Part shown: positions 5,236 through 38,828 of the stretch, piece by piece
How positions within the stretch are numbered: position 1 is the first letter of the stretch
How the letters are laid out: every line of letters starts with the position of its first letter
Source of the DNA: Rhodoferax sp.
Lineage (GTDB): Bacteria > Pseudomonadota > Gammaproteobacteria > Burkholderiales > Burkholderiaceae_C
Assembly (NCBI RefSeq): GCF_012927445.1
Contig: NZ_JABBPD010000007.1
Coordinates: 186,001-250,000, forward strand
DNA length: 64,000 bases
Direction: 5' to 3'
Program-made: the position numbers and the translations under genes
The notes under the pieces: model-generated
What the model saw: only the letters and a program-made list of their open reading frames with translations
What the model was told of the DNA's origin: nothing
Databases searched by the model: none

Positions 5236-6042
5236 TCAGGACACAACCCAGCCAGCCGCTCTGGCCAGCATCAATGCCGCCACCCCCAAGCTGAACCAGG
5301 CAAACGCCTGTTGCAGACGGGCGGCGTTGAGCTTGCCGGCCAGCTGGCGTCCCAGCAGCAAGGCCAACACGGCGCCCAAGGCGAACGGCAGCGCCACCGC
5401 CCAGGGCAGCGAGCCGTGCCAGGCCGCGGCGGAAACCCCGCTCAGGGAAACCAGGGCAATCACCGCCAGCGACGTCACCTGAACACTGCGCATGTCCAGA
5501 TCGGTGTACCGCGTCAGCGCCGGGACGATGACAAAACCGCCACCGACGCCGAGCAAGCCGCTGAGCAGTCCCGAGATCAGGCCGGTGCCAGCCAGCGCGC
5601 GGGCGCACGGCAGCGTCCAGGTCAGGCGTTGATCCGCATGGCTCACATGGCAGGGCACGGCCACCGGGCTTTGTCGGCTCGGCGGCGGGCGTTTGAGCAT
5701 GCGCCACGCGGTGTAAATCAGCACCAGGGCGAAGGCGGCCAGCAACGGCCGGTTCGGCAGCCGCTGTGCCATGAAGACGCCCAGCGGCGCCACCAGCATG
5801 CCGGCCACCCCGATCAAGCCGGCGGCGCGGTAGCGCACGATGCGCTGGCGCAGTCCCAGCGTCGCACCTAAAGCGGCGGCCAGGCCGACCGCCACCAAAC
5901 CCACCGGCGCCGCTTGTTGCACCGGCAGGTGCAGGCCAAATACCAGCAGCGGGATCGCCAGTACGCCGCCGCCGGCGCCGGTCAGGGCCAGCATGGCGCC
6001 AATGATGGCACCGAGTGCAATCGCCAGGGTCATGGGTTCCAT
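5236..6042 (-). CDS. Sulfite exporter TauE/SafE family protein
   Basis: Hydrophobic protein starting MEPMTLAIALGAIIGAMLALTGAGGGVLAIPLLVF...GLLSGLLGVGGGFVIVPAL. Confidence 0.85.
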   Translation of the reverse strand: MEPMTLAIALGAIIGAMLALTGAGGGVLAIPLLVFGLHLPVQQAAPVGLVAVGLAAALGATLGLRQRIVRYRAAGLIGVAGMLVAPLGVFMAQRLPNRPLLAAFALVLIYTAWRMLKRPPPSRQSPVAVPCHVSHADQRLTWTLPCARALAGTGLISGLLSGLLGVGGGFVIVPALTRYTDLDMRSVQVTSLAVIALVSLSGVSAAAWHGSLPWAVALPFALGAVLALLLGRQLAGKLNAARLQQAFAWFSLGVAALMLARAAGWVVS

Positions 6043-6052
6043 CGGTGGGCGC

Positions 6053-6913
6053 TCAGAGGACGTTGATTGGAATCTTGAGGTAGCGCACGCCGTTGTCTTC
6101 CGGCGGCGGCAGTTGGCCCGCCCGCACATTGACCTGCACGGAAGGCAACAGCAGCCGCGGCATTGCCAGGATTTTGTCGCGCGCCGTGCGCATGCTGACA
6201 AACTCGGCTTGCGTGATGCCGTCATGCACATGGATGTTTTTTTCGCGCTCCTGCCGCACGGTGGTGACCCATGCCGGTGCGCGTCCCGCCGGGGGATAGT
6301 CGTGGCACAGATGGAGTTGTGTCTCGGGCGCGAGGGCCAGCACCTTGTGGATTGAGCGGTACAGGGTGGCGGCGTCGCCGCCGGGAAAGTCGCAGCGTGC
6401 CGAGCCGTAGTCGGGCATGAACAGCGTGTCGCCGATAAACGCATGCTGGCCCACCACGTAGGTCAGACAGGCCGGGGTGTGGCCCGGCGTGTGCATGACG
6501 CGGACGTCGAGGGCCCCGATTTGGAACAACTCACCGTCCTCAAACAGGTGATCAAACTCAGCGCCTTCGGTGTTCATGTCCGGGGCATTGAAGAGCTTCT
6601 TGAATACCGCCTGGACGTCGCAAATATGGCGCCCGATGCCCATTTTTCCACCCAGTTGCGCCTTGAGATAAGGCGCGGCCGACAAGTGATCGGCGTGGGC
6701 GTGCGTCTCCAGCAGCCATGCCACCGTCAGCCCCGCTTGCCGGACATGCTCGATGACTTTGTCAGCGCTGGCGTGTGAAGTACGACCCGACTTCGGATCG
6801 TAGTCCAGCACACTGTCGATGATGGCCGCACGGCGCGTCACCGGGTCGGACACGATGTGCGTGACAGTGGCCGTGTCGAGATCAAAGAAGGATTGGATGG
6901 TGGGTTCTTGCAT
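6053..6913 (-). CDS. MBL-fold metallo-hydrolase (persulfide dioxygenase/Blh-like)
   Basis: ETHAHADHLSAAPYLK, HTPGHTPACLTYV, GDTLFMPDYGSARCDFPGGDA motifs. Confidence 0.85.
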   Translation of the reverse strand: MQEPTIQSFFDLDTATVTHIVSDPVTRRAAIIDSVLDYDPKSGRTSHASADKVIEHVRQAGLTVAWLLETHAHADHLSAAPYLKAQLGGKMGIGRHICDVQAVFKKLFNAPDMNTEGAEFDHLFEDGELFQIGALDVRVMHTPGHTPACLTYVVGQHAFIGDTLFMPDYGSARCDFPGGDAATLYRSIHKVLALAPETQLHLCHDYPPAGRAPAWVTTVRQEREKNIHVHDGITQAEFVSMRTARDKILAMPRLLLPSVQVNVRAGQLPPPEDNGVRYLKIPINVL

Positions 6914-6938
6914 GGGGTGGTTCGGCGGGCGGCTCGTG

Positions 6939-7319
6939 TTAGCCGAAGGTCGGCACGCTGGGTTTCACGACCGGTTTGCCGGCACCCGACCAGGCGTCAA
7001 ACCCGCCGCTGATGGACTGGACCTGCAGATAGCCCATCTCATGCAGCGCGCAGGCCGCCAGTGCGGCGCGGCCGCTGGTCTTGCAGTACAACACGATCTT
7101 GAGGTCGCGCGAGCTGAGTTCCGGGGCGTTGCTGAGCTTGAATTCCAGCATGCCACGCGAGGCATGAATGGCGCCGGGCAGGTGGCCCGCGCCGTACTCG
7201 TCGGCCTCGCGCACGTCGAGCAACACATCGGCCTCACGAATGGCCTGGTCGGCATCCGCAAGAGAGACTTCCTGAATGCGTGACTTGGCAGCGGTAACGA
7301 GGTCGTGAACAGTTTTCAT
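6939..7319 (-). CDS. Rhodanese-like domain protein
   Basis: LLDVREADEYGAGHLPGAIHASRG...IVLYCKTSGRAALAA; CxxxxR active-site loop. Confidence 0.88.
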   Translation of the reverse strand: MKTVHDLVTAAKSRIQEVSLADADQAIREADVLLDVREADEYGAGHLPGAIHASRGMLEFKLSNAPELSSRDLKIVLYCKTSGRAALAACALHEMGYLQVQSISGGFDAWSGAGKPVVKPSVPTFG

Positions 7320-7441
7320 CGGAGCTTCTTTCTGATTCAGGTTAAAACAATAGCCACCACACGGGTGGTTTGCCGGCTATATTTTCGGTTTTTGGCGCAG
7401 GCACGATCACCACTTGACCCGGGCATTCATGGGGTGGGCGC

Positions 7442-8206
7442 TTAAGCGACCCAACCCCATTTTTTGAAAATCGCTGCACCAGCGGGGGATGCTAAGAAAT
7501 CAACGAATTCCTGGGCTGTGGCTTTCGTCTTGCCCAGCGTCGTCAAGACAACCCCCGTATCACGGAAAACGGCATACTCAGGTTCAATGCGAACAACATC
7601 CGCCAAGCTGGGGTTGGCTACTTGCCAAATATTCCAAATGAGCCACACGTCTATCTCGGGCTTGTCAATCCATTGCTGACGCGCTTCAGCGCTGTTTTTG
7701 GCGTAACCCACAATATTTTTACGCATGTTCTTGACGGTATTGATGTTGCCCTTGCGCCCGGCCATATCTTCCCAAACACCGTTTTGCCCTGCGCCGTTGA
7801 CCACTAAAATTTTCACGCCCGGCTTAAGCAAGCTGTTAACACCGGTGATTTTTTGGGGGTTGCCTGGTCGGACCAGAATGGACAGGGGTCTGAGGTACAA
7901 GGGCTGTACCTCCGTATGTGAGATGCTGCCGCCCAAGGCTTGAACAAAGTCGGTCATCATGGTTTCTGAACCACTGTAGATGATGTCAGCATCATTTTTT
8001 GCCTTGTCCACCCATTGCGGTGTAGGGCCAGCCGTGACTTCAATCTTGACCCCCGTTTTCTTTTCAAACGCAGCGGCAGCCTCTTTCATGGCCGGCGCTG
8101 GACCGCCCGGACCATAGACGCGCAATGCGTCTTGTGCGTGTGCTGTGGTGATGGCGGCAAAAGCGCAGATCAAAACAGGAAAAATAGCTTTCGAAAATAA
8201 TTTCAT
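7442..8206 (-). CDS. Extracellular substrate-binding protein (ModA/PBP type II-like)
   Basis: Signal peptide + LRVYGPGGPAPAMKEAAAAFEKKTGVKIEVTAGPTPQW...DADIIYSGSETMMTDFV. Confidence 0.75.
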   Translation of the reverse strand: MKLFSKAIFPVLICAFAAITTAHAQDALRVYGPGGPAPAMKEAAAAFEKKTGVKIEVTAGPTPQWVDKAKNDADIIYSGSETMMTDFVQALGGSISHTEVQPLYLRPLSILVRPGNPQKITGVNSLLKPGVKILVVNGAGQNGVWEDMAGRKGNINTVKNMRKNIVGYAKNSAEARQQWIDKPEIDVWLIWNIWQVANPSLADVVRIEPEYAVFRDTGVVLTTLGKTKATAQEFVDFLASPAGAAIFKKWGWVA

Positions 8207-8309
8207 GGTTTCACTTTTTCAGTCAATGACTGATGTTTACAAGATGTATACGACCCGTCTTGATGGTCAAAAGAGACCCCCGGCGGAAAGCAAAGGGTCG
8301 ACAAATTAA

Positions 8310-8954
8310 TTACAGCGATTTGGTCGAGTAGTACCAGTCCGTCGTGTCGTAGCCTTCAGTGAGGCGCTTGTCGGCGGCCGCTGCGGTCTTGGGTGGTGGC
8401 ACGATCACGGGGCAGCCTGGCGTCCAGTTTTCAGGTGTGGCTACGCCGTTGGCATCAGACGTCTGCATGGCGGTCAGCAGGCGCACGAACTCGTCAATAC
8501 TGCGGCCATTGCTCATGGGGTAGTACACCATGGCACGCAAAATACCTTTGGGGTCAATGAAGAACGTTGCGCGCACGGCCTGCGTGTCGGCGGCGCCCGG
8601 GTGGATCATGCCGTAGGCGCGGGCCACATCCATCTTGATGTCTTCAATGATCGGGAATGGAATGTCAACGCCAAATTTTTCCTTGATATTGCGCGTCCAT
8701 GCCAAGTGTGAAAACAGGCTGTCAATCGACAGGCCGAGCAACTCGCAACCCATCTCGGTGAACTTGGGTGCGGCCTTGGCAAACCCGATGAACTCCGTGG
8801 TGCAGACGGGTGTGAAATCGGCGGGATGCGAGAAAAGAATCAGCCACTTTCCCTTGTAGTCGGCGAGCGTGCGGTCGCCATGCGTGGTCTTGACATTGAA
8901 GTCAGGCGCCTGCTCGTTGAGATGGGGGAAGCTGACTTGTTGAACATTTTCCAT
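8310..8954 (-). CDS. Peroxiredoxin (AhpC/Prx6-like)
   Basis: ILFSHPADFTPVCTTEFIGFAK active-site motif; FPIIEDIKMDVARAYGMIHPG. Confidence 0.93.
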   Translation of the reverse strand: MENVQQVSFPHLNEQAPDFNVKTTHGDRTLADYKGKWLILFSHPADFTPVCTTEFIGFAKAAPKFTEMGCELLGLSIDSLFSHLAWTRNIKEKFGVDIPFPIIEDIKMDVARAYGMIHPGAADTQAVRATFFIDPKGILRAMVYYPMSNGRSIDEFVRLLTAMQTSDANGVATPENWTPGCPVIVPPPKTAAAADKRLTEGYDTTDWYYSTKSL

Positions 8955-10511: not shown

Positions 10512-10934
10512 TCAGGCCGTACAACTGTGGCTGCCATCGGTGTTGACCAGATGATTGGCCATCTGGGAAAAAGTTTCAATCAGACGGGCGCGAAACGCGA
10601 CGTCCGCCACCTGCTCGGTCAGCGCCTGCGTCATGCACAGCATCCACTCGTCGCGCACCACCGAACCGACTGCGTAGGGGGCGTGGCGCATGCGCAATCG
10701 CGGATGCCCCTTTTTTTCGATGTAGAGAGACGGCCCGCCAAACCAGCCCGACAGAAATTCGAACAGACTCTGGGCACTGCCGTTGAGGCTTTCCGGGTGC
10801 ATTTGACGCACGGTGTAGGCCTCGGGCAGCTCATCCATCAACGCATAAAAGCGCTGCACCAGGCGCTGCACGCCGGCCTCGCCGCCCAGCGTGTCATAAA
10901 GGGTTGTGGTTGCTTCAGCAGCAGTTTGTGGCAT
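10512..10934 (-). CDS. Group II truncated hemoglobin-like globin
   Basis: TLYDTLGGEAGVQRLVQRFYALMDELPEAYTVRQMHP...LFEFLSGWFGGPSLYIEKKGHPRLRMRHAPY. Confidence 0.88.
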   Translation of the reverse strand: MPQTAAEATTTLYDTLGGEAGVQRLVQRFYALMDELPEAYTVRQMHPESLNGSAQSLFEFLSGWFGGPSLYIEKKGHPRLRMRHAPYAVGSVVRDEWMLCMTQALTEQVADVAFRARLIETFSQMANHLVNTDGSHSCTA

Positions 10935-10943
10935 AGCCCATCC

Positions 10944-12380
10944 TTATCTAGGAACCAAGAAAACCGATTTTTCCGTCAAGTGACCCGCCGAGTCCAGCGC
11001 GTCAATCTGAAACTGCATCGCATGCGAACCCGGAGCCGCCACATCCGCCGGCGCCTGCACCCGCACCGGCACCACCCGCGCCTCGGTCGAGGCCACCATC
11101 ACCACGTCTTCCGACGTCACCACCAGGCCTGGCAGACCAGACACGGTGATTTTGTAGTGTTGCGGCGCCTCGGTGGCGTTCATCACCTGCAGACGGTACA
11201 CGTTCTCGATCTTGCCACCGGCCACTTCGCGCGCCATGACGCCGCGGTCGCGCACCACATTCACCTTGAACGGTGTACGCAGTGCCAGACTAACCAACAT
11301 GGCCATGACGATGGTAGCCAGAATAGCGGTGTAGACCAAGACCCGCGGCCGCAGCACATGGCGCAAGGTCTGCGCCTGGGTCCAGTGCTGCTGCATGGCG
11401 TTCTCTGTCGTGTACTTGATCAGGCCGCGGGCGTAGCCCATTTTGTCCATCACGGTGTCGCACACATCGACGCAGGCGCCGCAGCCAATGCACTCGTACT
11501 GCAGGCCTTTGCGGATGTCAATGCCGGTGGGGCAGACCTGGACGCACAGACTGCAGTCGACGCAGGCGCCCAGATTCAGCGTGGTGATATCGGCCTTGCG
11601 GGAGCGGGCGCCGCGGGGCTCGCCGCGCTCCTCGTCATAGGTGACGATCAAGGTGTCTTTGTCAAACATGGCGCTTTGAAAGCGCGCGTACGGGCACATG
11701 TGTTTGCACACCTGCTCGCGCATGAAACCGGCGTTGCCGTAGGTGGCAAAGCCGTAGAAGAAGGTCCAGAACACTTCCCACGAGCTCATGCTCATCTGCA
11801 GAAACTCCAGGCCCAGGTCTTTGATCGGGGTGAAGTAGCCGACAAAGGTGAAGCCGGTCCACAGCGCCACCGCCAGCCAGACCAGGTGTTTGGCGGTTTT
11901 GCGCCCCACTTTGTCGAGCGACAGCGGCTTGGCGTCGCGGCGCATGCGGGCCGAGCGGTCGCCTTCAAACTTCTTCTCGATCCAGAGGAAGATTTCGGTG
12001 TAGACCGTTTGCGGGCAGGCATAACCGCACCACAGGCGGCCGGCCACGGCGGTGAAGAGAAACAGCGAGAGCGCGGAGATGACCAGAATGCCGGTCAGGT
12101 AGATGAAGTCCTGCGGGTACAGCACCAGGCCAAAGATGTAGAAGCGCCGGCTCCCCAGATCAAACAATATGGCTTGCCGTTGGCCCCATTCGAGCCATGG
12201 CAAGCCATAAAACACGAGCTGGGTCAGGAACACCATGCCCCAGCGCCAACTGGAGAACAGGCCCGAGACGCTGCGGGGGTAAATCTTCTCGTGCGAGGCG
12301 TACAGTGAAATCAACACTTCTTCCGCCTCTTGCGGCACGATGGGGATGACTTTTCTGACCTCGTGGGTTTCGTTATTCAC
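10944..12380 (-). CDS. ccoG: Cytochrome c oxidase accessory protein CcoG (copy 1)
   Basis: Two ferredoxin motifs CVDCSLCVQVCP and CIGCGACVDVCDTVMDKMGY; multiple TM segments; GRLWCGYACPQTVYTEIF. Confidence 0.93.
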   Translation of the reverse strand: MNNETHEVRKVIPIVPQEAEEVLISLYASHEKIYPRSVSGLFSSWRWGMVFLTQLVFYGLPWLEWGQRQAILFDLGSRRFYIFGLVLYPQDFIYLTGILVISALSLFLFTAVAGRLWCGYACPQTVYTEIFLWIEKKFEGDRSARMRRDAKPLSLDKVGRKTAKHLVWLAVALWTGFTFVGYFTPIKDLGLEFLQMSMSSWEVFWTFFYGFATYGNAGFMREQVCKHMCPYARFQSAMFDKDTLIVTYDEERGEPRGARSRKADITTLNLGACVDCSLCVQVCPTGIDIRKGLQYECIGCGACVDVCDTVMDKMGYARGLIKYTTENAMQQHWTQAQTLRHVLRPRVLVYTAILATIVMAMLVSLALRTPFKVNVVRDRGVMAREVAGGKIENVYRLQVMNATEAPQHYKITVSGLPGLVVTSEDVVMVASTEARVVPVRVQAPADVAAPGSHAMQFQIDALDSAGHLTEKSVFLVPR

Positions 12381-13076
12381 GTGGTTTCCTTCAATTGATC
12401 GGTTTCACTGGCGTGGGGCTGCTGCAGGTGGCCCAGCACGGGCGGGTCGGGCAGCGCCGCTATTTGCGCTAAAAATTCATCGCGGGTCAGCCCGGCAAAC
12501 AAGGGATGCCAGCGCCGCTGCTCCAGCACCGTGCTGACGGCGCGGGCGCGCTGCTCATGGCCGGCGAACAGCAGAGTCTCGTCGGGCAGGTTGAAGACGC
12601 GTTGCGTCACGCTGTCCCACAAGGCCTCGGGCGCGGCCGGACTGGGCTGGTGCGGCCGGACGGGGCTGGTGCGGGCAGGCCTGCACGGCCAGCAGGCCAC
12701 CGCAAAACAGCCGGTCGCGCCAGGCAAAGCTCAGGCAGGTGGCAGTGTGGCCGGGCGTGGCCAGCACGCGCACCAGCTCATGGCCGAACGGCAGCACGTC
12801 GCCATCGGCGGCGCTGCGTGCCAAGCCTTCGGCATGGCCTTGCAGCAGCGGGGCCTCCAGCCGGGCCAGCAGCGCTTGTTCCTGCGGTTGCAAATGGTCG
12901 TGCTGGTGGGTGCGCAGCACCCAGCGCAAGCGCAACTCGCGTTCGGCCAGCAGCGCTGTCAGGACGAGCAGATCGGCCCCGCGCAGGTCAATCAACACGG
13001 CCTCACGCGTGTCGAGGTCGGCCAGCAAATAGGTGAGCTCACCACTGGCTTCGTCGTGAAGGATGCGGAAATACAT
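12377..13076 (-). pseudogene. MBL-fold hydrolase interrupted by a frameshift (19-bp tandem duplication)
   Basis: N-terminal frame 12555-13076 (RTHQHDHLQPQ, LATPGHTATCLSF) and C-terminal frame 12377-12727 (EALWDSVTQRVFNLPDETLLFAGHEQ) are the two halves of one protein in different frames. Confidence 0.75.
12637..12674. repeat. 19-bp imperfect tandem duplication (2 copies, 1 mismatch) in the MBL gene
   Basis: ccggactgggctggtgcgg (12637-12655) followed directly by ccggacggggctggtgcgg (12656-12674). Confidence 0.9.
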
Positions 13077-13077
13077 A

Positions 13078-13395
13078 TCAAACTCCCCAGCGCAGCCAGG
13101 CCGCCACGATCAGCCCCAACGAACAAGACCAGCCCGAGAACAGCCGGCGCCAAAGCCAGTGGCGTGGCACGAAGCCGACCCCGTGCACGAATCCAGCGCT
13201 CATGGCACAGAACAGGGCCATCGCCAAGCCATGGTCGACCGTCCCATTGGCGCGCGCAAATACCAACGGATAAATGCTTCCCCCCAGCATGATGACCAGC
13301 GCCGCGATCAGGCTGGGCAGATGAATGGCCGCCCGGTCTGGCACGGTTGGCGCAACCCCTTCATGCACAGCCGATGACATCACCGGCGTCACCAT
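13078..13395 (-). CDS. Small membrane protein, YbgE-like cyd-operon protein
   Basis: 105 aa, several hydrophobic segments; position after cydX; start overlaps the cydX stop (ATGGTGA). Confidence 0.5.
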   Translation of the reverse strand: MVTPVMSSAVHEGVAPTVPDRAAIHLPSLIAALVIMLGGSIYPLVFARANGTVDHGLAMALFCAMSAGFVHGVGFVPRHWLWRRLFSGWSCSLGLIVAAWLRWGV

Positions 13396-13511
13396 GGATC
13401 GTCCCCTTTACGCGCCTGTGCGCGGGCCGCCTCATTCTCGCCCCACATGGCGTTAAGAATGGCCAGCAAGACGGCAAAGCCGACTCCCAGTATCCAGGCG
13501 AAATACCACAT
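13389..13511 (-). CDS. cydX: Cytochrome bd oxidase small subunit CydX/CbdX (40 aa; absent from the supplied ORF track)
   Basis: Reverse translation: MWYFAWILGVGFAVLLAILNAMWGENEAARAQARKGDDPW*; MWYFAWILG is the CydX N-terminal signature. Confidence 0.95.
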   Translation of the reverse strand: MWYFAWILGVGFAVLLAILNAMWGENEAARAQARKGDDPW

Positions 13512-13534
13512 TTTCTTCTCCTTTATGTTAATGT

Positions 13535-14164
13535 TCAGGCGGCGCTTGCGTCGTCTTCACCGATCAGCAGTCGGCTATCAGAGAGGTATTTGTGCGGCGG
13601 CACTTCCAGGTTGCTTGGTGCCGGTTTGTTTTTGAAGACGCGGCCCGCCAGGTCAAACGTGGAGCCGTGGCAGGGGCAGAAGAAGCCGCCCTGCCAGTCG
13701 CCACCCATGCTCGGGTTGCTGGAGCCGGCCGGCACTTTGCTGGGCGAGCAGCCGAGGTGGGTGCAGATGCCCACCGCGACAAATACTTCGGGCTTGATGG
13801 AACGGTGTTCGTTGCGCGCGTAGTCAGGCTGCTGATTGACTTTTGACGCCGGGTCGACCAACTGGCTGTCCAATGCGGACAACGCAGCCAGCATCTCCGG
13901 CGTGCGGCGCATCAGCCACACCGGCTTGCCACGCCATTCCACCATCTTGAGTTCGCCGGGCAGGATGTCTGCAATGTCGGCCTCCACGCTCGCGCCCATG
14001 GCACGGGCGCGTTCGCTGGGCGCAAAGCTGGTAACAAACGGGACCGCTGTCGCTACCGCGGCCACGCCTGCGGTGGCGGCGGTGATCAGGACCCACTTGC
14101 GACGCTCGGCATCGTGTTCATGGGTAGGGTCGGCAAGGGAGGTAAAGGCAGGGCAAGTCGTCAT
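13535..14164 (-). CDS. Rieske [2Fe-2S] protein, PetA-like (ubiquinol-cytochrome c reductase iron-sulfur subunit family)
   Basis: CTHLGCSP...FFCPCHGSTFD Rieske box pair; N-terminal TM after RRKWVLITAATAG. Confidence 0.92.
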   Translation of the reverse strand: MTTCPAFTSLADPTHEHDAERRKWVLITAATAGVAAVATAVPFVTSFAPSERARAMGASVEADIADILPGELKMVEWRGKPVWLMRRTPEMLAALSALDSQLVDPASKVNQQPDYARNEHRSIKPEVFVAVGICTHLGCSPSKVPAGSSNPSMGGDWQGGFFCPCHGSTFDLAGRVFKNKPAPSNLEVPPHKYLSDSRLLIGEDDASAA

Positions 14165-14198: not shown

Positions 14199-15335
14199 TC
14201 AGTACGCGGCATGCTCGTGTTCCTTGATGAAAGCGGCGGTTACTTTGCCGCGCATGACGCGGTAGGCCCAGGACGTGTAGAGCACGATCAGCGGCATGAA
14301 AATCAGCGTCGCCCAAAACATGATGCCCAGGCTCAGGTGGCTGGAGACACTGTCCCACACCGTCAGGCTGGCGGCCGGCATGGAGCTCGACGGCATGATG
14401 AAGGGGAACATGGAAGCGCCCGCCGTGCCTATCACGCCCACCAGGGCCAGCGACGAAGCCACAAAAGCGCTCAGCGTGTGACGCGCCAGCAGCAAGCCAG
14501 CCGCCAGCAGGGCACCTGCCACACCCAGGGCGGGCAGCAGCCAGATCAAGGGCTGGCGGCCATAGTTGGCCATCCAGGCGCCGGCCTCGCGCACCACCGT
14601 CTTGCTCAGCGGGTCTGGCAGCGCGGCGGGATCGATGACCGAGGAAATGCGGTAGCCGTCAATGCTTTGCAGCCACACGCCCGCCGCCACAAAAGCCAGC
14701 ACCATGATGATCGCCGCCCCGATGGCACCCTTGATCGCCCGCGCCTGAATCACGCCTTCGGTACGGTGCGCCAGATAGGTGCCGCCGTGCATCGTGATCA
14801 TGGCGCTGCTCACCACGCCGGCCAGCAGGGCAAACGGGTTGAGCAACTGCCAGAAACTGCCGGTGTAGGTGGAGACCAGGTAGTTGTCGAACTGAAACGG
14901 CACACCCTGCAGCAGGTTGCCAAAGGCCACGCCAAAGATCAACGGCGGCACCGCGCCGCCGATGAACAGGCCCCAGTCCCAGGTGCTGCGCCAAGTGGCG
15001 TTGTGAATTTTGCTGCGATAGTCAAACCCAACCGGGCGGAAGAACAGCGCCCACAGCACCACCAGCATGGCCCAGTAAAAACCGCTGAACGCCGTGGCAT
15101 AGACGAGCGGCCAGGCCGCAAAGATGGCACCACCACCGGTGATGAACCAGACCTGGTTGCCTTCCCAGTGCGGCCCCACGGTGTTGATCACCACGCGGCG
15201 CTCCAGGTCGCTCTTGCCGACAAAGGGCAGCAGCGTGCCCACGCCCATGTCGTGGCCGTCCATGATGGCAAAGCCCACCAGCAGCACGCCCACCAGCAGC
15301 CACCAGATGATCTTGAGAGTTGAGTAGTCAAGCAT
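14199..15335 (-). CDS. cydB: Cytochrome bd ubiquinol oxidase subunit II
   Basis: MLDYSTLKIIWWLLVGVLLVGFAIMDGHDMGVGTLLPFVG; GPHWEGNQVWFITGGGAIFAAWP. Confidence 0.97.
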   Translation of the reverse strand: MLDYSTLKIIWWLLVGVLLVGFAIMDGHDMGVGTLLPFVGKSDLERRVVINTVGPHWEGNQVWFITGGGAIFAAWPLVYATAFSGFYWAMLVVLWALFFRPVGFDYRSKIHNATWRSTWDWGLFIGGAVPPLIFGVAFGNLLQGVPFQFDNYLVSTYTGSFWQLLNPFALLAGVVSSAMITMHGGTYLAHRTEGVIQARAIKGAIGAAIIMVLAFVAAGVWLQSIDGYRISSVIDPAALPDPLSKTVVREAGAWMANYGRQPLIWLLPALGVAGALLAAGLLLARHTLSAFVASSLALVGVIGTAGASMFPFIMPSSSMPAASLTVWDSVSSHLSLGIMFWATLIFMPLIVLYTSWAYRVMRGKVTAAFIKEHEHAAY

Positions 15336-15357: not shown

Positions 15358-16914
15358 TCAGGCGTGGGCGGGTTCCAGGTCATAGCGGCCGGTACCCAAA
15401 CTGCCGGGCCCCATGCGCGCAAACTTGACCATCAGAAACATCTCCACCACCAACAGCACGGTGTAGAAACCAATATAGCCGGCAAGCGAGCCATACAGGC
15501 TGTTGACGCTCAGCGTGGACACGCTCATATGGGTCGGCAGCACGCCGTAAATCGTCCAGGGCTGGCGTCCGTACTCGGCCACAAACCAGCCCAGCTCACA
15601 CGCAATCCAGGGCGCGGGCAGCATCCATAACGCCCACTTGAGCAGCCATGATTTTTGCATGTTGACGGATTTGAGCGTGTTCCAGAAGGCCAGCCCAAAC
15701 AGCAGCAGCATCGCAAAACCCAGACCGACCATGATGCGGAAAGCCCAGAACATCGGCGTCACGCGCGGCACGGTGTCGTTCACCGCGCGCTCAATGATCG
15801 CGGGCGTGGCCTGGTTCACATCAGCCACATATTTTTTGAGCAGCAGACCAAAACCAAGGTCGGCCTTGTGACCCTCGAACACCTTTTTCGCCACCGAATC
15901 ATCGCGATGGGCACGCAGGGCTTCGAGTGCGTTCACGGCCACAATACCACGCAGAATACGTTCACGGTTCTTGGTCTTGATCTCGTGGATGCCGGGAATT
16001 TCTTTGCTGATGGAGCGCGTGCCGATCAGGCCCATGAGCCACGGAATCTCGATTTCCCAGTCGTTCTTTTGTTCGGCTTCGTTGATGTCGGCCACCAGCG
16101 TCAGGCCAGCCGGTGCCGGTTTGGTCTCCCACATGGCTTCCATGGCCGCCAGCTTGGTCTGCTGGGCCTCGCCCACGGTGTAGCCAGATTCGTCCCCCAG
16201 CACAATCACGCTCAGCACCGACGCCAGGCCAAAGGCGGCGGCGACGCGAAAGCTGCGTTTTGCAAATTCAACATCGCGCCTTTTGAGCAAATACCAGCTG
16301 GAGATGGATAGCACAAACATGGCGCCCGTCACGTAGCCGGCCGACACCGTGTGCACGAACTTGGCCTGTGCGTCGGGGTTGAACACCACAGCCCAGAAGT
16401 CGACCATTTCCATGCGCATGGTCAGGTAACTGAACTCGGAGCCCACGGGGTTTTGCATCCAGCCATTGGCAATCAAGATCCACAGTGCGCTGAGGTTGGT
16501 GCCGATCGACATGAGGACCGTTACCATCAAGTGCTGCGTTCGGCTCAAGCGATCCCAGCCGAAGAAAAACAGCCCGATCATGGTCGATTCGAGAAAGAAG
16601 GCCATCAGCCCTTCAATCGCCAACGGCGCGCCAAAAATGTCGCCTACATAGTGCGAGTAATAGGCCCAGTTGGTACCAAACTGGAACTCCAGCGTGATGC
16701 CGGTGGTCACGCCCAAGGCAAAGTTAATGCCGAACAGCTTGCCCCAGAAGCGCGTCATGTCCTTCCAGACCACGTTGCCCGTCATGACATAAACGCTCTC
16801 CATGATGACCAGCAGCCACACCATGCCAATGGTCAGTGGCACAAACAGAAAGTGGTACAGGGCCGTGGCGGCAAACTGCAGCCGTGACAGGTTGACCAGT
16901 TCTTCAGAAATCAT
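15358..16914 (-). CDS. cydA: Cytochrome bd ubiquinol oxidase subunit I
   Basis: [35 protein letters not shown]...[19 protein letters not shown]. coli CydA-like. Confidence 0.97.
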
Positions 16915-17102
16915 TGCGGTAGTCCTTTGGCCGGGATGGGGGCGCTCTGCAAAAACTGCGCGGCCACGCTGTTTGTGTCCACCGTCACACGTTGTTCCCG
17001 CACAAAACCCCACCACAGCGCCACCAGCACGGCGAGCTTGATCACCAGCACCACAGCCAGTTTTCTAACGAGGGTTTTGTCCAGAGGTTTCATGACAGTC
17101 AT
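16911..17102 (-). CDS. cydP: Putative cytochrome oxidase small subunit CydP
   Basis: 63 aa single-TM protein ([33 protein letters not shown]) directly upstream of cydA with ATGA overlap. Confidence 0.75.
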
Positions 17103-17222
17103 TACGCTTATCCCTACTGTATATCAAGAACCGCGCCACAACGGCGCCCGTTTGAATCCCGTTTTAATTCAAGGACTTACGTTTTCAAGCGGCCTCTGTC
17201 GCCTGTTTTTCAGGGGAATTAC

Positions 17223-17267
17223 TGCCACAATTGGCAAAAGCTGCCATTTTTGGCATAAGCTGACATT
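17223..17267. promoter_or_regulatory. Array of alternating TGCCA/TGGCA half-sites in the cydP-regulator intergenic region
   Basis: TGCCA 17223, TGGCA 17232, TGCCA 17242, TGGCA 17251, TGACA 17261; includes the direct repeat TTGGCAaAAGCTGcCATT/TTGGCAtAAGCTGaCATT. Confidence 0.55.
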
Positions 17268-17286: not shown

Positions 17287-18636
17287 GTGAAGCCATTGCC
17301 CGAACTCATGTCGTATTTGGAAGGATTGAGCGAGCCGCACATCCTGTTTGACACGCAGTACCGCATCCTGGCCGCCAACGCCGCTTACCGGCGTCAGTTC
17401 AGCCCCGAGCGCAGCGTGGTCGGGCGCACCTGCTACGAGGTCTCGCATCGTTTTAACGTGCCGTGCGACCAGGCGGGCGAATCGTGCCCCTTGCTCAAGG
17501 CGCGCGAATCCGGCCAGCGCGAGCGGGTGCTGCATCTGCACCACACGCCCAAGGGCGAGGCCTACGTCAATATTGAACTGGCGCCGCTGCTGGATGCGAC
17601 TGGCCAGCAGGCCTTCTACATTGAAAAAATGGAGGCGCTGCGTGTGGCGCAGGGCCAGTCGGCCGCACAAGGCCTGATTGGCCGGGCGCCCGCCTTCCAG
17701 CACATGCTGGCGCTGGTGGCCCGTGTCGCGCCGTCGCAGGCGACGGTCTTGTTGCTGGGGGAATCGGGCACCGGCAAAGAGTTGGTGGCCCGTGCCGTGC
17801 ACGAGACCAGTCCACGCGCCCACCGCGCCCTGGTGGCGGTGGACTGCGCCAGTCTGCCGGAAAACCTGTTTGAGTCCGAGCTGTTTGGCCACGAACGCGG
17901 CGCCTTCACCGGCGCCAACACCGCCCGCGGTGGGCTGGTGGAGGCGGCCAGCGGCGGCACGCTGTTTCTGGACGAAGTGGGCGATATTCCGCTGGTGATG
18001 CAGGTGAAGCTGCTGCGCCTGCTGGAGACCGGCACCTACCGCCGCGTCGGCAGCACCGAGCAGCGCCATGCCGATATTCGCGTGGTGTCAGCGACCCACC
18101 GCGACCTCGACCGGATGGTGGCGGCGGGAACCTTTCGGGAAGACTTGTACTACCGGCTGAGCACCTTTCCGATCCACCTGCCGTCCTTGCGCGAGCGCCG
18201 TGACGATATTGGGCTGCTGGCGGCGGCCCTGCTGGAGCGGGTGGCGCCGCAACGCAAGCTGCAGATCAGCGAACCGGCGCTGCGCCTGCTGCAAGAGCAG
18301 GACTACCCCGGCAATGTGCGTGAACTGCGCAACCTGCTGGAACGCACGGCGCTGCTGTGTGACGGCGACACGCTGGAAGCCGGCCATGTGCAGCAGGCGC
18401 TGCGGTCCGGCCGGCGCCCGGCCGCTGCGCCGCCACGCAATCTGCCAGCGCCCGATCGCGCCACCGCCGCCAGCGATACCGCGGACATCCCTCCGGTGCC
18501 CGGCGCCCTCAAGACGCTGGAGCGCGCAGCGCTGCAGCAATTGGTCAGCGGCCACCAGGGCAGCCGGGCCGCGCTGGCCGCCCAACTGGGCATCAGCGAG
18601 CGCTCGCTGTACCGCAAGCTGAAGGCACTGCAATGA
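17287..18636 (+). CDS. PAS domain-containing sigma-54-dependent transcriptional regulator
   Basis: [18 protein letters not shown] Walker [12 protein letters not shown] sigma-54 contact loop, C-terminal Fis-type HTH ([20 protein letters not shown]). GTG start. Confidence 0.93.
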
Positions 18637-37283: not shown

Positions 37284-38732
37284 TTAGCGCGGTACTAAAA
37301 ACACCGATTTTTCAATGAGGTGTCCGGGCGAGTCCAGCGCGTCAATTTCGAACTGCATGACGTGTGAGCCTGGGGTGGCGGCATCAAACGGCAGTTGCAC
37401 CCGCACCGGCAACCAGCGCGCCTCGGTGGCTTCCACGGTGACGACATTTTCGGAACTCAGCACCAGACCGGGCAGACCCGTCGCGGTGATTTTGTACCGG
37501 TGGGTCGATTCGGTCGCGTTCATCACCTGGAGTCGATACACATTTTCGATCGTGCCGCCCGCCACAATGCGCGTCATGACGCCCCGATCGCGCACCACAT
37601 CGACCTTGAACGGCGTGCGCAACGACAGACTGACCACCATGGCCAGCACCATGGTGCCCAGCACGGCGGCATAAATCAGCACGCGCGGCCTGAGCACATG
37701 ACGCAGGGTTTTGGCTTGGCTCCAGTGCTGGCTCATGGCGTTTTCAGTGGTGTACCGGATCAGCCCGCGTTCGTAGCCCATTTTGTCCATGACCGTGTCG
37801 CAGACATCGACGCAGGCACCGCAGCCAATGCAATCGTGCTGCAGACCGTTGCGAATATCGATACCGGTCGGACAGACTTGAACACACAGGGTGCAGTCCA
37901 CACAGGCGCCCAGGCTTAACGTGGAGAGTTCATCCTTGCGTGACCGGTTACCCCGTGGTTCACCGCGTTCCTTGTCGTAGGTGACGATCAGGGTGTCGTT
38001 GTCAAACATGACGCTTTGAAATTGCGCATACGGGCACATGTGTTTGCAAATCTGTTCACGCATGAACCCCGCATTGCCGTAGGTGGCAAAGCCGTAGAAA
38101 AAAGTCCAGAAGACTTCCCATGAATTCACGCTCATCTGCAAAAACTCGCCACCCAGTTCCTGGATCGGCGTGAAATAGCCGACAAAGGTAAAACCAGTCC
38201 ACAGCGCCACGGCCAGCCACAGCAAATGTTTGGTACTTTTGCGCAGCACCTTGTTCGCGGACATCGGCTGCGCATCACGGCGCATGCGGGCCGAGCGCTC
38301 CCCTTCGACCTTCTTTTCGATCCAGAGAAAAATCTCGGTGTAGACCGTTTGCGGACAGGCATAACCGCACCACAAACGGCCGGCCACCGCGGTGAACAGA
38401 AACAGCGACAGGGCGGAGATCACCAGAATACCGGCGAGATAAATAAAATCTTGCGGGTACAGCACCAAGCCAAAGATGTAGAAACGCCGGGTGCCGAGAT
38501 CGAACAGCACCGCTTGGCGCTGCCCCCACTCGAGCCACGGCATGCCATAAAACACCAGCTGGGTCAGGAACACCATGCCCCAGCGCCAGCGCGCGAACAG
38601 ACCGGAGACACTGCGCGGATAGATCTTCTTGTCGCTCGCATAAAGAGAGAGCAAAGCCTCGTCGCCTTCAAATGCCTGGCCAATGGGTATGTACCCCTCT
38701 TGCGGGAGGATGGGGATGACTTTGCGGGTCAT
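37284..38732 (-). CDS. ccoG: Cytochrome c oxidase accessory protein CcoG (copy 2)
   Basis: CVDCTLCVQVCPTGIDIRNGLQHDCIGCGACVDVCDTVMDKMGYERGL; near-identical layout to copy 1. Confidence 0.93.
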   Translation of the reverse strand: MTRKVIPILPQEGYIPIGQAFEGDEALLSLYASDKKIYPRSVSGLFARWRWGMVFLTQLVFYGMPWLEWGQRQAVLFDLGTRRFYIFGLVLYPQDFIYLAGILVISALSLFLFTAVAGRLWCGYACPQTVYTEIFLWIEKKVEGERSARMRRDAQPMSANKVLRKSTKHLLWLAVALWTGFTFVGYFTPIQELGGEFLQMSVNSWEVFWTFFYGFATYGNAGFMREQICKHMCPYAQFQSVMFDNDTLIVTYDKERGEPRGNRSRKDELSTLSLGACVDCTLCVQVCPTGIDIRNGLQHDCIGCGACVDVCDTVMDKMGYERGLIRYTTENAMSQHWSQAKTLRHVLRPRVLIYAAVLGTMVLAMVVSLSLRTPFKVDVVRDRGVMTRIVAGGTIENVYRLQVMNATESTHRYKITATGLPGLVLSSENVVTVEATEARWLPVRVQLPFDAATPGSHVMQFEIDALDSPGHLIEKSVFLVPR

Positions 38733-38828
38733 CGTTTCATTCTTGTTCAAAGGCGATCTTTCTGAGAGTCGGTTTTTGAAATGCATACGAAATAGCACCG
38801 CGATAAGGTGGGCTTTCAATCAGATAGT

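Follow-up and report, generated by a model that had tools for sequence, protein, structure and literature searches.

The Rieske iron-sulfur gene inside the cytochrome bd operon of this window (the whole stretch of 64 kb that was analysed) is probably an alternative Rieske gene, petA2, of the FisR regulon: its product would be induced by sulfide and swap into the cytochrome bc1 complex, and the gene is here joined to the operon of a sulfide-resistant bd oxidase. A single sulfide-sensing regulator appears to switch on both the spare Rieske gene and the bd operon, and this shared regulation, a link absent from the earlier note on this DNA, would account for the co-location of petA2 and cyd. The evidence can be read directly from sequence comparison: the operon itself, a second locus with petABC, a separate PetA2 clade, the association of PetA2 with FisR, and the pattern of promoters.

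The operon reads cydP-cydA-cydB-Rieske-cydX-ybgE, with all genes tightly spaced on the minus strand:

13078..13395, minus strand: ybgE (PF09600, 80 bits)
13389..13511, minus strand: cydX (PF08173, TIGR02106)
13535..14164, minus strand: petA2, second Rieske [2Fe-2S] protein, 209 aa (TIGR01416, PF00355, PF10399)
14199..15335, minus strand: cydB, bd oxidase subunit II (TIGR00203, 509.6 bits; PF02322)
15358..16938, minus strand: cydA, bd oxidase subunit I (PF01654, 574.9 bits)
16911..17102, minus strand: cydP, putative small bd subunit (NF045611, 52.9 bits)

Profile matches thus place every gene in the order and on the strand claimed by the earlier note, and its description of the Rieske protein also holds: the CTHLGC and CPCHGS motifs are both intact, and the N-terminal transmembrane segment is recovered as a TAT/TM anchor at the cut-off of PF10399. 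No cytochrome b or cytochrome c1 gene is present at the window locus, again as described. The coordinates given for the Rieske gene, 13389–14164, do span it but also take in cydX, the Rieske gene alone occupying 13535–14164. A genuine Rieske protein with no local partner genes was, as had been judged, worth explaining.

The earlier note had also considered that the arrangement might be unique to one assembly. Our survey of loci gave seven clear cases in which a Rieske gene separates cydB from cydX (the window, L012, L017, L058, L067, L129, and L132), and a one-off assembly artefact is ruled out by this recurrence. L056 probably has the same cydB-Rieske arrangement, its contig holding the cydB end only. 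In L058, one additional gene (5470–5925; its protein judged by eye only) separates cydB from the Rieske gene, and in L067 an extra gene follows ybgE (6938–7462), the protein of which matches MrpORP/NifX/NifB models; the extra genes of these two loci are possibly linked to metal clusters. At L023 (3326–6600, plus strand), the position between FisR and petA2 is occupied by a CydAB pair only about 30% identical to that of the window, as though another bd-type oxidase had moved in there.

A whole-genome search located a second bc1-type Rieske gene on contig C5 (L008), in a complete petA-petB-petC cluster. This makes the cyd-linked copy a second PetA (PetA2) and excludes the possibility raised earlier, that the genome has no other petA and that a petBC elsewhere depends on the window Rieske protein. 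The source genome also carries a cbb3 oxidase (TIGR00780) and two further heme-copper family genes, and therefore at least one cytochrome c oxidase for bc1 to feed. PetA2 matches TIGR01416 as a whole protein (210 bits, with a cut-off of 97.4), retains KPAP in the Pro loop and PSERA in the hinge in addition to its two ligand motifs, and has as its PDB relatives bc1 Rieske subunits (E to 1e-62).

Sorted by neighborhood, the Rieske relatives comprise 79 genes with petBC versus 36 distinct genes without (PetA2), and neither petB nor petC was found near any of these 36. In the tree, a supported branch (SH-aLRT 96) separates all sampled petABC-linked PetA from PetA2, which includes proteins from Zoogloea and other betaproteobacteria; the cyd-linked copies are scattered over the PetA2 part and form no clade of their own. 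Of the 92 columns invariant in PetA1, 63 are kept by PetA2 at ≥90%, including the ligands, the hinge, and the Pro loop. PetA2 departs from PetA1 chiefly in the loop that separates the two ligand loops and at one Pro-loop residue. Near the cluster, several positions that are invariant elsewhere are changed (K144V, Q150N, D184S/T), so that docking could be altered. Exactly one petB was counted in each of the 18 PetA2 genomes checked, dN/dS against relatives is 0.10–0.14, and the cyd-linked copies are likewise under purifying selection. The single petB, the 63 retained columns, the low dN/dS, and six PetA2 genomes without CydA (see below) point to an alternative subunit for the sole bc1 complex, and we infer that PetA2 most likely exchanges there with the housekeeping PetA.

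Two other fates of the protein bear on the same evidence. Were PetA2 not part of bc1 but a free periplasmic electron carrier, anchored in the membrane and serving sulfide oxidation, its constant separation from petBC and its frequent proximity to SQR or PDO-like genes would follow naturally; this is decidedly improbable, however, for a protein that keeps the bc1 Rieske hinge, Pro loop, and ligand environment, always co-occurs with petB, and is followed by no conserved new redox partner gene. Even less probable is that petA2 has no role of its own and is a neutral duplicate or a hitchhiker in a stress island. The loose gene order among relatives and a broken MBL gene next to it in the source genome would suit such a history, but its dN/dS does not, nor does an old separate clade that reaches Zoogloea and other betaproteobacteria and is repeatedly retained beside FisR. 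An orphan petA of another setting was seen on an mcr-5 plasmid of Cupriavidus gilardii (L146; NZ_CP098737.1, 6004–6609), where it adjoins cueR and a heavy-metal ATPase gene and is possibly a copper-linked spare Rieske gene.

The conserved partner of PetA2 is a divergent FisR and not bd, most PetA2 genes adjoining FisR without cyd. In the window this regulator is encoded as follows:

17287..18636, plus strand: FisR-type PAS-sigma54-Fis activator, divergent to the cyd operon (PF08448, PF00158, PF02954)

The PAS_4, sigma54-activation (AAA+), and Fis HTH domains are all present, and Cys49, Cys60, and Cys67 are invariant in 25/25 orthologues, with spacing equal to that of Cys53, Cys64, and Cys71, which we take to be the cysteines of Cupriavidus FisR. 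The named comparator for the assignment was the nearest named homologue, on the megaplasmid of C. metallidurans, which is 52% identical, keeps the cysteines, and stands divergent to genes read as persulfide dioxygenase (PDO) and SQR, a layout that recurs in genome G117 (L164). On these features the assignment as FisR is strong, and the window protein would presumably sense sulfane sulfur as characterized FisR does. In the Cupriavidus protein, reactive sulfur is sensed through disulfide/tetrasulfide links among the three conserved cysteines (PMC9774590). FisR of A. baumannii is without these cysteines and still responds to sulfide (PMC7315123), and therefore the cysteines alone do not prove the signal of the window regulator.

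FisR lies within 7 kb of 24/36 distinct PetA2 genes versus 0/79 petABC genes; for the other 12 of the 36 it was not found within this distance. In a family sample of 151 genomes, with relatedness ignored, the regulator is strongly associated both with PetA2 (12/15 versus 16/136 genomes) and with close bd-I CydA (12/14 versus 16/137 genomes). Furthermore, cydPABX without PetA2 is also flanked by FisR (L147–L153), and genome G052 has FisR-cyd and FisR-petA2 as two separate loci.

Between FisR and cydP, two elements complete the picture:

17123..17138, minus strand: predicted sigma54 −24/−12 promoter TGGCGCGGTTCTTGAT, reading into cydP, at a conserved position
17223..17265, no strand assigned: tandem TGCCA/TGGCA dyads, probable FisR upstream activating sites, aligned with both R. 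ferrireducens FisR-type promoters

The dyads sit between FisR and the promoter. A sigma54 −24/−12 motif facing away from FisR was found in 38/46 regions upstream of FisR, the window included, with petA2, cyd, ccoG, or PDO downstream; the controls gave 68/4000 segments (1.7%) and 3/78 petABC upstream regions. The window element (TTGAT and TGGCGCG) is off consensus. When only the window was scanned, 89 matches came up in 64 kb, among which TGGCGCGGTTCTTGAT does not stand out; such a scan is uninformative, and the promoter claim therefore rests on positional conservation. We predict that cydPAB-petA2-cydX-ybgE is transcribed from this FisR/sigma54 promoter.

The history of the operon is clearest in the closest relative, Rhodoferax ferrireducens OTU1. 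Its cydPABX-ybgE genes encode CydP, CydA, CydB, and CydX 93–96% identical to those of the window, with YbgE at 70%, and in this operon there is no Rieske gene between cydB and cydX. The PetA2 of R. ferrireducens, 87% identical to that of the window, is encoded about 7.7 kb downstream of cyd, beside a FisR of its own and with the promoter TGGCACGGTTCTTGAA; upstream of cydP stands the near-identical TGGCACGGTTCTTGAT, in the same place as the window promoter. The promoter region of the window and the two of R. ferrireducens align over their full length. The best reading of the window arrangement is that two FisR units merged into one, either by insertion of petA2 into cyd or by loss of the material between the two units.

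These comparisons also bear on the reading that PetA2 is a working partner of bd, whether as an additional subunit, as a factor in assembly, or as a route for electrons into CydAB, the latter two of which the earlier note had put forward. The seven clear loci do place PetA2 between cydB and cydX, within the transcription unit, and the cyd-linked copies are under purifying selection. Against this, CydA of any type is absent from six PetA2 genomes, PetA2 mostly does not adjoin cyd, a petABC is present elsewhere in the genome, each PetA2 genome checked offers exactly one cytochrome b for PetA2 to join, and the cyd-linked copies form no clade. A bd-I subunit or accessory protein is expected only together with cydAB, and PetA2 is not so confined. 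We reject a role as bd partner, which seems barely probable at all, on the PetA2 genomes lacking CydA and on the Rieske-free operon of R. ferrireducens.

Downstream of the cyd operon, the window holds further genes of sulfur and respiratory metabolism:

5236..6120, minus strand: TauE-like gene, after the persulfide dioxygenase gene
6053..6913, minus strand: persulfide dioxygenase (ETHE1/Blh dioxygenase domain; NF040641 dioxygenase part, 394.5 bits)
6939..7319, minus strand: rhodanese, before the persulfide dioxygenase gene
10512..10934, minus strand: truncated globin (PF01152), at 10/36 PetA2 loci
10944..12380, minus strand: ccoG, cbb3 oxidase accessory protein (TIGR02745, 519.8 bits), at 13/36 PetA2 loci
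12377..13076, minus strand: MBL-fold (GloB/persulfide-dioxygenase-like) gene, frame broken here and intact in relatives

The reading frame of the MBL-fold gene is broken by about 19 bases that R. ferrireducens lacks and that resemble a short tandem duplication; the gene may be a young pseudogene or the break a sequence error. The persulfide dioxygenase shares 62% identity with the FisR-adjacent PDO of C. metallidurans. Together with genes for a peroxiredoxin, a periplasmic binding protein, a rhodanese, and a TauE-like protein, its gene forms a run (5236–8954, minus strand) a few kb downstream of cyd on the same strand. SQR of the source genome is on another contig. Among relatives, SQR, PDO-like MBL, globin, and CcoG genes recur beside PetA2, and a sulfide response is the simplest theme common to the PetA2/FisR neighborhoods. 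There are two ccoG genes in the window (10944–12380 and 37287–38750). At L158, L160, L162, and L166, FisR adjoins ccoG without petA2 or cyd, and a sigma54-type promoter points toward ccoG in three of these four loci (L158, L160, and L162); the pattern suggests that a second CcoG is itself a FisR target.

It is conceivable, though unlikely, that PetA2 does enter bc1 and that its regulator answers through the PAS domain to a signal other than sulfane sulfur, such as low oxygen, NO, or the quinone redox state. The regulator has a PAS_4 domain, CcoG, globin, and bd are typical of low-oxygen and NO responses too, and the second Rieske protein of Mesorhizobium loti is induced by low oxygen (PMC6256036). 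Against this, the exact three-cysteine arrangement is invariant, the same type of regulator and promoter is found at the PDO and SQR genes of both C. metallidurans and G117, and SQR and PDO-like genes recur beside PetA2.

As a member of the FisR (sulfane-sulfur-sensing, sigma54-dependent) regulon of Burkholderiales, petA2 would be expressed as follows: an increase in sulfide or persulfide would cause FisR to activate the sigma54 promoter, which in the source genome would yield a single cydPAB-petA2-cydX-ybgE transcript, from which the sulfide-resistant bd oxidase would be made together with a second Rieske protein; PetA2 would then replace the housekeeping PetA in bc1, and quinol oxidation would be kept or tuned during sulfide oxidation. 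Bd oxidase is insensitive to sulfide (PMC4815019), and cydAB is induced by sulfide in A. baumannii (PMC7315123). Functional redundancy is reported for the second Rieske proteins of Rubrivivax and Rhodospirillum, whereas the second Rieske protein of M. loti did not replace the first in nodulation (PMC6256036). More tentatively, and as something possible rather than probable, a single FisR switch may, in response to sulfide, rebuild the respiratory chain at two points simultaneously, with bd bypassing the heme-copper oxidases and a sulfide/persulfide-adapted Rieske protein entering bc1, the two units having been joined in this lineage.

The components are of known kinds, and their combination was not found in the searchable literature: within the literature searched, subscription papers being outside reach, no paper ties Rieske genes to FisR or cyd operons. 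Orphan Rieske genes became known some two decades ago, and we know of no general reason for their retention. The conserved link to FisR would provide a specific one, a sulfide-conditioned bc1. It would widen a regulon noted for enzymes of sulfide oxidation to include remodelling of the respiratory chain, and predicts that in many Burkholderiales sulfide induces bd-I, low oxygen not being the only inducer.

Among known systems, the closest to PetA2 is the exchangeable second Rieske protein (also PetA2) of Rubrivivax gelatinosus, reportedly the subject of Ouchane et al. 2005 (Mol Microbiol 57:261). Compared by description, both are a second PetA whose gene lies apart from petABC, and both come from betaproteobacteria that have a single bc1 complex. 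To our knowledge, the R. gelatinosus protein has no link to FisR or sulfide and no position in a cyd operon. The regulatory half resembles the FisR-pdo-sqr sulfide oxidation system that is said to have been described by Li et al. in 2017: as in Cupriavidus and Acinetobacter, there is a divergent sigma54 activator of equal architecture, a sigma54 promoter, and PDO/SQR in the wider neighborhood, and the three regulatory cysteines of the window FisR are of the Cupriavidus type. Unlike in that system, the window targets include cydPABX-ybgE and a Rieske gene, neither of which is reported in FisR operons by the papers found. The Rieske pair of M. loti likewise combines one constitutive and one conditional copy in a single bacterium, although its second copy is expressed under low oxygen and the accessible part of the source describes no FisR or cyd link (PMC6256036). 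Finally, the window operon has the same genes in the same order as the standard bd-I cydABX-ybgE operon, and differs from it in the Rieske gene between cydB and cydX and in a promoter that is, by appearance, FisR/sigma54-dependent.
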